A stretch of 64,000 bases of DNA from Hyphomonadaceae bacterium TMED5. GTDB taxonomy: Bacteria > Pseudomonadota > Alphaproteobacteria > Caulobacterales > Hyphomonadaceae. Below are positions 2,532 through 8,040 of the stretch, piece after piece (the first letter of the stretch is position 1; each line of letters opens with the position of its first letter). The notes beneath the pieces are model-generated. The model made no database searches. It saw only the letters and a program-made list of their open reading frames with translations, and had not been told where the DNA came from. The position numbers were made by a program, and so were the translations under genes. Location of the stretch: contig NHBK01000008.1 of the NCBI GenBank assembly GCA_002173095.1, forward strand, positions 62,001 to 126,000. The letters are read 5' to 3'.

Positions 2532-3944
2532 CTAGATGTGCATCACGCGGTCATAGGCCTCGAGCACGCTCTCGTGCATCATTTCTGACAGCGTTGGGTG
2601 TGGGAATACCGTTTCCATGAGTTCGGCTTCGGTAAGCTCACCCTGACGCGCAACCACGTAACCTTGAATGAGCTCAGTCACTTCGGCGCCGATCATATGA
2701 GCGCCGAGGAGCTCTCCCGTCTTCGCATCAAAGACGGTTTTAATCATGCCCTCTGGTTCACCCAGAGCGATTGCTTTGCCGTTACCGATGAATGGGAATT
2801 TACCCACTTTCACCGTATGGCCCGCTTCTTTCGCTTTTGCTTCCGTCAGACCGACAGATGCGACCTGAGGATGGCAATAGGTGCAGCCCGGAATATTCCA
2901 GGTTTCAAAGGCATGTGGATTTTTGCCAGCGATTTTTTCAACACATACAACGCCTTCATGACTTGCCTTGTGGGCGAGCCAAGGTGGCCCGGTCAGGTCG
3001 CCAATCGCGTACAGTCCTTTTACGTTTGTCGCACCGAAACCGTCTACGACAACATGCGTTCTGTCGACTTTGACGCCGAGATCTTCCAGTCCCAGGTTTT
3101 CAACATTGCCGACAATACCGATCGCCAGAACAATGCGGTCATACGTTTCGGTGGTTGTTTTGCCGTCTTTGCCTTTGATCGTGGCTGATATCTGATCCTT
3201 GCCCGGTTTCACGCTCTCGACGCTGGTTCCAGTCAGAACCTTCATGCCCTGTTTCTGGAATGATTTCAGCGCCATGCCGGAGATTTCTTCATCTTCCACC
3301 GGCAGCACGCGGTCCATCATCTCTACGACGGTCACATCAGATCCGAGAGCATTGTAGAAACTGGCAAATTCGATACCGATTGCGCCTGAGCCGATGACCA
3401 GAAGCTTGCCTGGCATCGTATCGGGAACCATGGCTTCCTTCGCCGTCCAGATGAACTTGCCATCAGGCTCCAGCCCTGCTGCTGGAATAGTGCGAGCTCT
3501 TGCTCCCGTAGCCAGCATCACATTCTTAGGCTGATAAGACGTCTCTTTTCCGTTCTTACCTTTCACGATCACTTTAGGTGCAGCACCGCCTTTGGCAACG
3601 CGGCCCTCCCCTTCGATAACCGAGATTTTGTTTTTCTTCATCAGATGCTTCACGCCGCCAGAGAGCTGACCTGCAATCTGACGAGACCGTTTAACAACGG
3701 CTTCAAGATCAAAACTCACGCCTTCGACCTTCAGGCCGTAAGCTGAAGCATTCTTCATCTGGTGAAAGACTTCTGCGCTTCGCAGGAGAGCTTTGGTCGG
3801 AATGCAGCCCCAGTTGAGACATACGCCGCCAAGCGCATCACGCTCAACAACGGCAGTCTTTAGACCCAGCTGCGAAGCTCGAATTGCGGCAACATACCCG
3901 CCAGGGCCAGTGCCGACGATTATAAGATCAAAATTTTCAGCCAT
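2532..3944 (-). CDS. lpdA: Dihydrolipoyl dehydrogenase (E3 of pyruvate dehydrogenase)
   Basis: A flavoprotein that reoxidises dihydrolipoyl arms with NAD+, completing the pyruvate dehydrogenase cycle. At 470 residues it has the usual family length. The N-terminal FAD-binding motif is GTGPGGYVAA. The redox-active disulfide is in GGVCLNWGCIPTKA, the CxxxxC pattern of the family. The second dinucleotide fold GSGAIGIEFASF is near residue 185, and the C-terminal HPHPTLSE motif supplies the catalytic His-Glu pair across the dimer. It is the last gene of eno-ftsB-pdhA-pdhB-pdhC-lpdA, 24 bp after pdhC, which implies dedication to this complex rather than to 2-oxoglutarate dehydrogenase. Confidence 0.97.
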   Translation of the reverse strand: MAENFDLIIVGTGPGGYVAAIRASQLGLKTAVVERDALGGVCLNWGCIPTKALLRSAEVFHQMKNASAYGLKVEGVSFDLEAVVKRSRQIAGQLSGGVKHLMKKNKISVIEGEGRVAKGGAAPKVIVKGKNGKETSYQPKNVMLATGARARTIPAAGLEPDGKFIWTAKEAMVPDTMPGKLLVIGSGAIGIEFASFYNALGSDVTVVEMMDRVLPVEDEEISGMALKSFQKQGMKVLTGTSVESVKPGKDQISATIKGKDGKTTTETYDRIVLAIGIVGNVENLGLEDLGVKVDRTHVVVDGFGATNVKGLYAIGDLTGPPWLAHKASHEGVVCVEKIAGKNPHAFETWNIPGCTYCHPQVASVGLTEAKAKEAGHTVKVGKFPFIGNGKAIALGEPEGMIKTVFDAKTGELLGAHMIGAEVTELIQGYVVARQGELTEAELMETVFPHPTLSEMMHESVLEAYDRVMHI

Positions 3945-3968: not shown

Positions 3969-5270
3969 TCAAAGGAGCATCGCTTCAGGCGTCTCAACGA
4001 AACGCTTGAAGGCCTGAAGCCATTTGGCGCCTTCAGCGCCGCCAATGACGCGGTGGTCGCATGTCAGCGTGACCGACATGACGGTCCGAGCTGCAAGGCT
4101 GCCATCATCGAGAACAACTGCACGCTTCTCGCCGCCGCCCACAGACATAATCATGCCCTCTGGAGGATTGATGATTGAACCGAATGACTTGATCCCGAAC
4201 ATACCCAAATTGGAAATGGAGAACGTGCCGCCAGTGTATTCCTGAGGTTTCAGCTTGCGGTCACGCGCGCGTGTCGCAAGGTCTTTCATCTCTTCGGAAA
4301 TTTCACGCAGACCTTTAGTCTGAGCATCCCGGATAACCGGTGTAATCAGACCGCCATCAATGGCTACGGCAACAGAAATGTTCGCAGACTTATGATAAGC
4401 AATGCCATTGTCGGTATAGCTTGAATTGCAGTCTGATTCAGCCATCAGCGCCAAAGCAGACGCTTTGATAAGCATGTCATTGACTGAGACTTTAACGCCT
4501 TCCGGAGCCGCAGCATTAATGCCTGCACGTGCCGCCAGTAGTTTATCGAGCTGAATGTCCACTTCTAGTGGGAAGTGAGGCACCTGCATAAAGCTGGTGG
4601 TCAGGCGTTTCGCAACCGTTTTACGCATGCCGTCCAGCGGAACCAGTTCATAGCTTTCCGGATCATAGATGCGATCATCCAGAACCTGAGGCAGAATGAG
4701 CCCATCTGGTGAGCCAGCTGATGCGGTTGCCGCAGCAGCGGGTTTCGGTGCAGAGGCTGCCGCTTCAACGTCTTTTTTAATGATGCGGCCGTGAGGCCCT
4801 GAACCCTTGAGAGATTTCAGGTCGACACCTTTTTGTGCCGCAATCCGGCGCGCAAGAGGGCTGGCCTTAATCCGATCGGCACCTGAGCCTGCGCTAGGGA
4901 CCGCCTTAGGCGCTTCCTCTTTTGGCTGTTCCGTAGGAGTGGGTGTTGGAGAAGCTTCGCTCTTCGAATCGGTGGCTTCCGATTTTGGAGAGCTTTCTTC
5001 TGCTACTTCTACAGAAGAAACATCTTCGCCATCTTCAGCCAGAACAGCGATCACCGAATTGACCTTTACGCCTTCGGCGCCTGCCTCGACGAGGATTTTG
5101 GCAATCTTGCCTTCATCCACGGCTTCGACTTCCATTGTCGCTTTGTCGGTCTCGATTTCCGCAATGATGTCGCCTGATGCAACATCATCACCTTCTTTAA
5201 CGAGCCATTTTGCGAGCTTGCCCTCTTCCATCGTCGGAGACAGGGCCGGCATTGTGATATTGATAGCCAT
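3969..5270 (-). CDS. pdhC: Dihydrolipoamide acetyltransferase (E2 of pyruvate dehydrogenase)
   Basis: The E2 core transfers acetyl groups from lipoyl-lysine to CoA. Domains along the 433 residues: one lipoyl domain (about 2-77, lipoyl lysine K43 in TDKATMEVE), a Pro/Glu/Ser/Thr-rich linker (about 88-130), a peripheral-subunit-binding domain (about 134-170, [11 protein letters not shown]) and a catalytic domain to the C-terminus. The catalytic His is in DHRVIGG (H406). The family motif is DHRxxDG; here the aspartate position is Gly410 (GGC at 4041-4043), which I checked on the nucleotide sequence. The rest of the domain looks normal, so the protein is probably active, but this is a real departure from the motif. 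It starts 9 bp after pdhB. Its lipoyl domain is nearly the same as that of PdhB. Confidence 0.95.
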
Positions 5271-5279
5271 GTCTGTCTC

Positions 5280-6668
5280 CTAAAGCCCTTCGCAGACAGC
5301 TTTTGCCGCTGCTACAATGTCTTCCGTTCCAGGAAGGGAGAGTTTTTCGAGGTTCGCAGCATATGGCAGCGGAACGTCTTTCTGATGAACCCGAACTGGT
5401 GGAGCATCGAGATAGTCGAACGCTTCATTGACTACAGTTGCCGCGATTTCAGCCCCAACGCCCATAAAGCGCCAGCCCTCTTCACAGCAAACAAGACGGT
5501 TCGTCTTCTTCACGCTTTCTACGACCGTATCGGTATCGAGCGGTCGGAGGGTGCGCAGGTCAATAACCTCAGCGGAGATACCCGCCTCAGCAAGCTGTTC
5601 TGCAGCTTCCAGCGCATAGCCGACCATACGGGAATGAGCGACGAGCGTTACGTCTGTTCCTTCGCGTTTGACCTTAGCCTTGCCAATTGGAAGGACCCAA
5701 TCATCAACGTCCGGAACATCAAAGCTTTCACCATAGAGAAGCTCATGCTCGAGAAATACGACCGGGTTAGGGTCACGAATTGCGGCTTTGAGAAGTCCCT
5801 TTGCGTCGGCAGCGTCGTATGGTGCAACCACTTTCAGGCCCGGAACATGCGCATACCAGGATGAATAGTCCTGACTGTGCTGCGCGCCAACTCGGGACGC
5901 AGCGCCGTTAGGACCGCGGAATACAATCGGACAGCCCATCTGGCCACCAGACATATAGAGCGTTTTCGCAGCAGAGTTGATGATGTGGTCAATCGCCTGC
6001 ATGGCGAAGTTGAACGTCATAAACTCGACGATTGGTTTGAGCTTGCCAAATGCTGCGCCTACGCCAAGACCCGCAAACCCATGCTCGGTGATCGGCGTGT
6101 CGACTACGCGTCTGTCGCCAAACTCCTGGAGCAGCTCCCGTGTAACCTTATAGGCACCCTGATACTGAGCCACTTCCTCGCCCATGACGAACACAGCTTC
6201 ATCAGCACGCATTTCTTCCGCCATGGCGTCACGCAATGCGTCACGAACCGTCGTAGACGTAAAGGATGTGCCTTCCGGAACTTCCGGATCGATAAGCGTT
6301 TTTGTTGCCGGAGCGGGAGCAGAGCTTTCTTCTGATGAAGCGGCTTCCGCAGCAGGCTCTTCGTCTGTCGCGACTGACGCAGCCTCTGCTGGAGCGCCTG
6401 AGGCCTCTACAGATGAAGCGTCTTCGCCTTCTTCCGCGAGTACAGCAATAATGCTGTTTACTTTGACGCCTTCAGTGCCTTCTTCCACGAGGATTTTCGC
6501 GAGCGTACCCTCGTCAACGGCTTCGACTTCCATCGTGGCCTTGTCGGTTTCGATTTCGGCGATGATATCGCCAGAGACGACTGAGTCGCCTTCCTTTTTA
6601 AGCCATTTGGACAGTTTGCCTTCTTCCATCGTCGGAGAAAGCGCTGGCATAAGAATATCTACGGACAT
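5280..6668 (-). CDS. pdhB: Pyruvate dehydrogenase E1 beta subunit with N-terminal lipoyl domain
   Basis: With PdhA it forms the thiamine-diphosphate-dependent E1 that decarboxylates pyruvate. The first 77 residues are a lipoyl domain (lipoyl lysine K43 in TDKATMEVE), followed by an Ala/Glu/Ser-rich linker to about 125. The transketolase-like pyrimidine-binding domain begins at [15 protein letters not shown], and the transketolase C-terminal domain includes VICCEEGWR-like and HQKDVPLPY segments. The extra lipoyl domain on E1 beta makes it 462 residues, against about 330 for the plain form; this architecture is known in alphaproteobacteria such as rhizobia and Zymomonas. The start codon overlaps the last base of the pdhA stop, indicating translational coupling. 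Confidence 0.96.
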
Positions 6669-7681
6669 TACAGGCCCTCCGCTTCAATAAGGACATCGGT
6701 CCACAGTTCTTTTGGATCGGGTTCAGGGCTCTCCTGAGCAAAGTCCACAGACTTTGCGACGATTGCCTTGATTTCCTTATCGAGCTCTTTGAGCTGTTCT
6801 TCTGTCGCTTCACCAGCCTCGAGCAATTGCTTTTTCAGGCCCTCAATCGGGTCATGGTGAGAACGGATGTCGTCAACTTCCTCCCGTTTCCGGTACTTCG
6901 CCGGGTCGGACATTGAGTGACCGCGATAGCGGTAAGTTTTCATTTCCAGAATGAATGGGCCTTTGCCGGAGCGCGCGTGCTCAACAGCTTTCAGACCTGC
7001 TTCGCGAACTTTAAGGACATCCATACCGTCAACTTCGATACCTTCGATTTCGAAAGAGATGCCACGTTTGAAGAGTTCGACTTCTGAAGCGTGTCGTTCA
7101 ACGCTTGTACCCATAGCGTACATATTGTTTTCGATCACATAGATGACCGGAAGCTTCCAGAGTGATGCCATGTTGAAGGCTTCATATACCTGGCCCTGGT
7201 TGGCCGCGCCGTCGCCAAAATAGGCAAGGCAGACTTTGGCATTGTCCTTATACTTGTTGGAGAATGCGAGGCCTGTCCCGATCGGCACCTGAGCGCCTAC
7301 AATACCGTGACCGCCATAGAACTCTTTTTCACGAGAGAACATGTGCATGGAGCCGCCCTTCCCTCGGGAATAGCCACCTTCGCGGCCGGTCAGCTCGGCC
7401 ATAACCCCATCCGGGTCCATGCCGCAGGCCAGCATGTGGCCGTGATCTCGATATCCTGTGATGACCTGATCGCCATCTTCGATGGCGTCTTGCATTCCAA
7501 CAACGACTGCTTCCTGACCGATATACAAATGGCAGAAGCCTGCGATAAGGCCGCGCCCGTATAGCTGTCCCGCTTTTTCCTCAAAGCGTCGGATCAGCAG
7601 CATGTCATTGTAGAATTTAAGTTTGTCGTCAGTCGTTATGTTCGATTTTTTTGATGACTTGCTCAAATTATCTGCTCCCAT
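6668..7681 (-). CDS. pdhA: Pyruvate dehydrogenase E1 alpha subunit
   Basis: The alpha chain of the heterotetrameric E1. The thiamine diphosphate motif runs from GDGAANQGQ through the ENNMYAMGT segment. The conserved loop [15 protein letters not shown] is the one phosphorylated in mitochondrial homologues; no kinase is seen nearby. I chose ATG 7681 (337 residues; starts [10 protein letters not shown]). The frame opens further upstream at a TTG (7711) overlapping the ftsB stop. A third candidate is the TTG at 7666, which has GGGAG about 8 bases before it, so the true N-terminus is uncertain by up to 15 residues. The gene is coupled to pdhB downstream and follows ftsB, a common alphaproteobacterial order. 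Confidence 0.94.
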
Positions 7682-7707
7682 TTGGCGAGAACATATCAAG
7701 CGGTCAA

Positions 7708-8040
7708 TCAATTGCTAAGAGCAAAAAGGTCTTCATTTTCGGGTTGCTGGGATGTCAATTCGGGTGGCTCAAGCACAATTTCGTCTGCATAAACGAAGTG
7801 AAACTTGCGTCGAGCGAGCTCTTCCAGAAAGTCATCGTCAAGAGAATCCGCGTATAACCGGTTGATATTCTGTTCCAGTTGTTCGCGTTCACCTTCAAGA
7901 TTTGAGCGCTGAAGTTCAAGCGCGCGAATCTCATTTTGCATTTCACTCCAGGACGACAGCCCCTGATCTCCAGATACCGCATGGTATCCAAGATAAGAGA
8001 TAACACCCATTAGGCAGGCGCTGACGACTGGGAATTTCAT
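7708..8040 (-). CDS. ftsB: FtsB/DivIC-type septum formation initiator
   Basis: A small bitopic division protein of 110 residues. One membrane helix spans about residues 4-22. A periplasmic coiled coil (about 30-66, rich in Leu/Glu/Arg) follows, then a C-terminal segment beginning DDFLEELARRKFHFVYADEIV, typical of the FtsB/DivIC family. By family knowledge it would join FtsL and FtsQ in the divisome. It lies between eno and pdhA, where alphaproteobacteria usually keep this gene. The last 25 residues are acidic and Gln/Pro-rich and look disordered. The symbol is by family and position; sequence similarity in this family is low. Confidence 0.85.
   Translation of the reverse strand: MKFPVVSACLMGVISYLGYHAVSGDQGLSSWSEMQNEIRALELQRSNLEGEREQLEQNINRLYADSLDDDFLEELARRKFHFVYADEIVLEPPELTSQQPENEDLFALSN

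Follow-up and report, generated by a model that had tools for sequence, protein, structure and literature searches.

A glycine at the aspartate site of the active-site motif in a pyruvate dehydrogenase E2, paired with a glutamate three residues on, in Hyphomonadaceae and a second alphaproteobacterial order

The pyruvate dehydrogenase operon in the window, i.e., the whole stretch of 64,000 nucleotides analyzed here, raises the question of how an E2 enzyme might work when Gly takes the place of the Asp in its active-site motif DHRxxDG. The preliminary description had read D-H-R-V-I-G-G with codon GGC for residue 410 at 4041–4043, and residue number, codon and coordinates proved to be exact. The gene, its domains and its neighbors are the following:

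2532–3944, minus strand: lpd, dihydrolipoyl dehydrogenase (E3; TIGR01350, 561.2 bits)
3969–5270, minus strand: pdhC, E2 of the pyruvate dehydrogenase complex (dihydrolipoamide acetyltransferase), 433 aa (TIGR01349, PF00198, PF00364, PF02817)
3972–4655, minus strand: catalytic domain of pdhC, residues 206–433 (PF00198)
4764–4871, minus strand: E3-binding domain of pdhC, residues 134–169 (PF02817)
5040–5261, minus strand: lipoyl domain of pdhC, residues 4–77 (PF00364)
4038–4058, minus strand: active-site motif D405-H406-R407-V-I-G410-G411, from the codons
4041–4043, minus strand: codon 410, GGC (Gly), Asp in most E2
4032–4034, minus strand: codon 413, GAA, for the coupled Glu
5280–6668, minus strand: pdhB, E1 beta carrying its own lipoyl domain (NF008854, 837.3 bits, and PF00364)
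6668–7711, minus strand: pdhA, E1 alpha (TIGR03182, 516.3 bits), listed as an open reading frame from a TTG, so that the true start may be internal

Codon by codon, the motif consists of GAC for D405 (4056–4058), CAC for H406, CGC for R407, GTC for V408, ATT for I409 and, beyond Gly410, GGC for G411 (4038–4040) and GCT for A412, which yields the extended form D405-H-R-V-I-G410-G-A-E413-G-A. In a profile search with the whole protein, the pdhC product reached 510.2 bits against TIGR01349 (PDHac_trf_mito; cut-off 445) and stayed at 232.2 bits against TIGR01347 (E2o, SucB; cut-off 378.65), and PF00364, PF02817 and PF00198 all exceeded their cut-offs, giving the three domains typical of an E2. The gene order pdhA-pdhB-pdhC-lpd is intact and places the E2 beside E1 alpha, E1 beta and E3, as befits a member of the complex. 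The catalytic His and the serine in the FxIS loop are likewise in place: D405, H406, R407, S353 and R222 are invariant in 173 distinct aligned E2p, with Ser353 located via the S558A chain 1dpd. Only the Asp of DHRxxDG, here Gly410, is missing from the features of a pyruvate dehydrogenase E2, and we kept the protein as an E2 because solved active E2s carry Asn or Gln at this site, so that the Asp is no defining feature of the family. Apart from this protein, only one E2-type protein was found in the genome, a SucB-like one, which leaves the window E2 as the only pyruvate-type E2 found. Since it is also conserved over dozens of species, the enzyme is, judging from these comparisons, very probably active.

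The lipoyl domains of E1 beta (5280–6668) and E2 (3969–5270) share 69% identity over 116 residues, a pattern expected if one domain arose as a copy of its counterpart. A search of the window (1–64,000) revealed no tRNA, no tmRNA and no Rfam match that reached the gathering score.

What the missing Asp does in other E2s is described in papers that were available in part. According to these portions, D607 of the E. coli E2p secures the correct tautomer of H603, D-H-R being common to all E2 (PMC8421416), and the bovine Asp624 stabilizes the protonated histidine (PMC9681731); the available part of a further paper holds no statement on the role of the Asp (PMC8626477). In the E. coli E2o, the exchange Asp379Ala left 9.5% of the activity, an 11-fold effect, and Asp374Ala and His375Ala had a 54-fold effect each (PMC5986005, available part). 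The primer sequence published there (PMC5986005) gives Glu at +3 from position 379, and the Asp379Ala enzyme consequently already resembles the Gly/Glu state.

Gly410 turned out to be widespread in the family Hyphomonadaceae. Among 105 genomes searched, 100 had a readable E2p motif (the motif of this E2 was not readable in G005, G009, G031, G073 and G102), and 84 of these 100, from seven genera, carry Gly410 together with Glu413 (g1 6, g2 2, g3 28, g4 3, g5 41, g7 1 and g9 3 genomes). The remaining 16, from three genera (g6 1, g8 1, g10 14), have Asp at 410 and either Thr413 or Val413. The idea that Gly might be unique to this genome is thereby rejected, and Asp410 probably gave way to Gly in a common ancestor of most family members. 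Within the best 80 of at least 587 named relatives, Asp was present in 76 and Gly in four (L003; L004, Henriciella mobilis; L005, Hyphomonadaceae; L077, titled Alphaproteobacteria). The codons for Gly410 vary across the family genomes and the second order described below. One family genome, G008, holds two E2p copies on two contigs (L143 and L165), each 74% identical to the window E2 and both Gly/Glu, which reflects either a duplication or a mixed assembly.

A class-wide survey with DNA patterns brought up three genomes of a second alphaproteobacterial order with DHRVFGGAEGA, and in this order DHRV[F/Y]GGAEGA was found in all eight readable genomes of nine searched (in the ninth, G695, the E2 match ends before the motif). 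In a tree of 86 E2p, computed with the motif columns left out, two Gly clades are required even when well-supported branches alone are counted; the tree is of a "quick" type, in which some details of the branching order are uncertain. Forcing Gly into one clade costs 112.9 log-likelihood units, and the AU test rejects a single origin (p-AU 8.9e-5). Kordiimonas, which has Asp, adjoins the second Gly clade with modest support (89). By these sequence comparisons, Gly410 has arisen twice.

The search for further Gly origins by DNA patterns gave matches in at least 166 of 398 genomes at the level of the order, in all 28 genomes when repeated on two families of that order, in 87 of 385 genomes for the class and in 81 of 398 for the phylum. 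Most of these matches are due to chance: of 44 chosen regions that were read, three were E2 (all from the second order) and 41 were not, and of 30 loci returned by the class-level search, two were E2 (Hyphomonadaceae) and 28 were not. Matches with residues 408/409 unlike those of the E2p examined here were left out of the reading. All patterns require a CGN arginine codon, the phylum pattern also Val, Ile or Met at 408, and the order, two-family and class patterns need T at the second place of codon 409, by which Tyr409 forms are missed; owing to these codon restrictions, the absence of further origins is unprovable from the patterns.

The second feature of these enzymes, which the preliminary description had missed, is the residue at 413. 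In the set of 173 distinct E2p, from which 44 rows (paralogous E2s, fragments and one truncated copy) had been removed beforehand, 83 are Gly/Glu, i.e., Glu413 is present in every one of the 83 Gly rows. The 90 Asp410 rows have Leu (49), Thr (20), Val (12), Ile (6), Asp (2) or Glu (1) at 413. When all 433 positions were screened for a residue present in more than 80% of each Gly clade but in less than 10% of the Asp sister genera and, likewise, of the remaining alphaproteobacteria, just 410 and 413 qualified. Position 409 is shifted as well, from Val to mostly Ile in one Gly clade and to Phe or Tyr in the other. As judged from the alignment, 410 and 413 are coupled, Glu413 accompanying Gly410 in both origins; with two Gly origins only, a paired test of the coupling is unable to reach significance.

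The original claim that the Asp is nearly invariant holds for the other alphaproteobacterial E2p, where all 90 non-Gly rows have Asp, and fails for E2s at large, in which Asn, Gln and Thr occur. The suggestion that the active site of this lineage is altered and still works agrees with the clade-wide Gly, the two origins, the role as sole E2p and the constant catalytic residues, with conservation pointing to a working enzyme. Overall, the original interpretation is thus supported in part, and the pairing with Glu413 has to be added to it. The Gly410/Glu413 form is a new variant inside a well-known enzyme family.

An AlphaFold2 model of residues 200–433 (model residue 1 is residue 200), predicted as a monomer from a 42-row alignment with a mean pLDDT of 93.4, places the two positions in the same structural element:

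3993–4040, minus strand: predicted helix, residues 411–426, with 410 as N-cap and 413 as N3 (AlphaFold2 model)

In the model, a strand ends at D405 and the last long helix begins at 411, so that 410 is predicted as the N-cap and 413 as N3, one helix turn on. N-cap and N3 are the two places of the classic capping box. The model fold matches solved E2 cores, best those of pig and human PDH (TM 0.92 to 9j1w). The model is a monomer, whereas the E2 active site is formed between two subunits (PMC8421416, available part).

The reading we favor, with a little more than even confidence, is that this pyruvate dehydrogenase E2 works with its active-site carboxylate relocated from the N-cap (410) to N3 (413), a change that is clade-wide and compensated. 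In the ordinary enzyme, Asp410 would cap the helix after the catalytic D-H-R and help to hold or polarize His406. In the Gly enzymes, Glu413 might take over from one turn further on, with its carboxylate in the first helix turn beside His406, and we infer that this carboxylate acts on His406 or its surroundings. The remaining steps would be unchanged, with His406 assisting CoA in its attack on the acetyl group carried by the lipoyl arm and Ser353 stabilizing the intermediate of acetyl transfer.

Whether Glu413 serves His406 or rather the helix start is where a serious rival enters, which we regard as the less likely but real possibility. Glu413 could compensate structurally only, by restoring a helix start weakened by the loss of the Asp cap, and catalysis would then rest on D405-H406-R407 and S353, with an acid required neither at 410 nor at 413. 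The predicted placement at N-cap and N3 speaks for this possibility, as do the textbook capping-box letters Thr-Gly-Gly-Glu of another E2 group and the E. coli E2o, in which the 11-fold effect of Asp379Ala is smaller than the 54-fold effect at Asp374 and His375 (PMC5986005, available part). However, the cap Asp mostly occurs without an acid at N3 (37 of 53 rows), although Asp-x-x-Glu would also cap well, and the available parts of the structural papers have the Asp stabilizing the catalytic histidine (PMC8421416; PMC9681731).

Relocation of the carboxylate also has to be weighed against explanations in which Glu413 has no part. A near-neutral change, in which the Asp adds little, Gly drifted in and an unrelated Glu413 coincided twice by chance, appears improbable: the same pair recurs in two origins as the sole such pair among 433 positions, and Gly and Glu are both retained in 83 of 83 distinct rows, even if Asn or Gln occurs naturally there in active solved enzymes and an 11-fold loss may be bearable where E2 does not limit the flux. 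That the E2 is inactive or decaying, or that another enzyme makes acetyl-CoA from pyruvate, would agree with the lost residue being named catalytically active in the E. coli E2p. Yet neither the three E2 domains (lipoyl, E3-binding, catalytic) nor the E1a-E1b-E2-E3 order is disrupted, in line with the initial impression of healthy domains and an unlikely decay, D405, H406, R407 and S353 are constant, and a second pyruvate-type E2 was not found in the genome; decay is accordingly rejected, and the whole explanation is highly improbable. The least credible option, a sequencing or assembly error, would need one base change only (GAC read as GGC), but Gly is encoded, by differing codons, in 84 genomes of the family and in the second order, which refutes it.

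How general an acid at +3 might be was examined in a 75-row mix of E2 groups, where all 22 non-Asp rows (Gly, Thr, Asn) and 16 of the 53 Asp rows have one; the rows are not independent, since in both groups a first find led to its relatives, which make up five of six Thr rows and four of five Asn rows. The 16 Asp rows also indicate that an acid at +3 has other uses. Thr with Glu at +3 comes from six plasmid records (Methylocella, Paraburkholderia, Cupriavidus, Caballeronia, Leisingera and Photobacterium) and Asn with Asp at +3 from five (two Paraburkholderia, Diaphorobacter, Azospirillum and Halomonas). On the tree, at least four changes between Asp and non-Asp are forced by starred branches, and the best tree needs six, among which there may be reversals to Asp. 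In four independent pairs, the acid at +3 changes the same way in 3.3 on average and the opposite way never, which is too few for significance.

Solved and mutated enzymes allow further comparison. The E2 of the mitochondrial/alphaproteobacterial type (TIGR01349; mammalian cores 9j1w, 8piu, 7uom) shares domain order, fold, D-H-R, Ser353 and operon with the window E2, but has Asp and, in the mammalian motif, Val where the window E2 has Gly410 and Glu413. The E2p of Azotobacter vinelandii (1eaa, Asn614) is active without the Asp, like the window E2, and differs by Asn at this site and Ala at +3, i.e., it lacks a compensating acid. The Asp is also replaced in the E2o domain of actinobacterial OdhA/KGD (8p5t, 8p5r, 2xt6), albeit by Gln instead of Gly and in fusion to E1o, with Glu at +3 in 2xt6 and 8p5r and Val in 8p5s and 8p5t. 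The organism of 8p5s and 8p5t is presumably Corynebacterium glutamicum. OdhA functions with a His316/Gln320 pair (PMC10415282, available part). The E. coli E2o Asp379Ala has a cap without acid and Glu at +3, like the window E2, but is a laboratory mutant and catalyzes succinyl transfer (PMC5986005, available part). The plasmid-borne Thr-Gly-Gly-Glu and Asn-Gly-Ala-Asp E2s have lost the Asp and carry the +3 acid as in the window, but belong to other E2 groups, with Thr or Asn instead of Gly.

With Asn/Ala in A. vinelandii and Gln/Val in 8p5s and 8p5t, an acid in the first helix turn is not universal, and both exceptions hold an amide, which can still bond the histidine; the Gly410 E2s examined show zero exceptions to the acid at +3. 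As a tentative generalization, which we hold at somewhat less than even confidence, the helix that follows D-H-R in E2 acyltransferases could require one carboxylate in its first turn, either from Asp at the cap or from Glu/Asp at +3, unless an Asn or Gln amide substitutes, and lineages would shift the carboxylate between both sites. If this were true, the Gly410/Glu413 clades would be natural double mutants showing that the acid itself counts, not its position.

Whether the Asp acts as histidine helper, electrostatic support or structural cap has so far been debated on the basis of a small number of model enzymes, their mutants and their structures, and two Asp-less clades with the same second-site residue offer a natural test in a central enzyme. 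Moreover, annotation demanding an intact DHRxxDG would wrongly call the Gly/Glu enzymes dead. CAT contains an Arg18-Asp199 pair. In the open-licence literature, titles and abstract openings on alphaproteobacterial or Hyphomonas E2 do not name the Gly410 variant, searches for motif names with E2 terms and for BCKD mutants matched no papers, and no relevant paper was found on plastid or cyanobacterial E2 active sites or on the Arg18-Asp199 pair of CAT. A DNA scan of viral contigs for the Tyr form that the preliminary description had ascribed to plastid E2 gave no match; one E2 relative was found in these contigs, of the ordinary Asp/Leu form.

Several observations were made in the plasmid sample, for which 28 stretches were fetched and of which L321 and L326 were excluded from the 75-row counts. 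The plasmid-borne proteobacterial E2s with Thr-Gly-Gly-Glu after D-H-R are L327 and L329–L333, and the Asn-Gly-Ala-Asp E2s of L324, L336, L337 and L338 adjoin a separate gene annotated as lipoyl domain-containing protein. L321 (Aminobacter niigataensis plasmid) loses the E2 reading frame directly behind the motif's Asp-His, owing to a frameshift or a truncated gene. The E2-like haloarchaeal protein of L326 (Halocatena marina plasmid) has Gly at 410 and Glu at 413, and was set aside as no ordinary E2 because Thr replaces the catalytic His (DTRAVGEDE); this protein may no longer transfer acyl groups or may have another activity. NZ_LT559118.1 (11.85 million bases) and NZ_AP026896.1 (4.94 million bases) are filed as plasmids and look like chromosomes.
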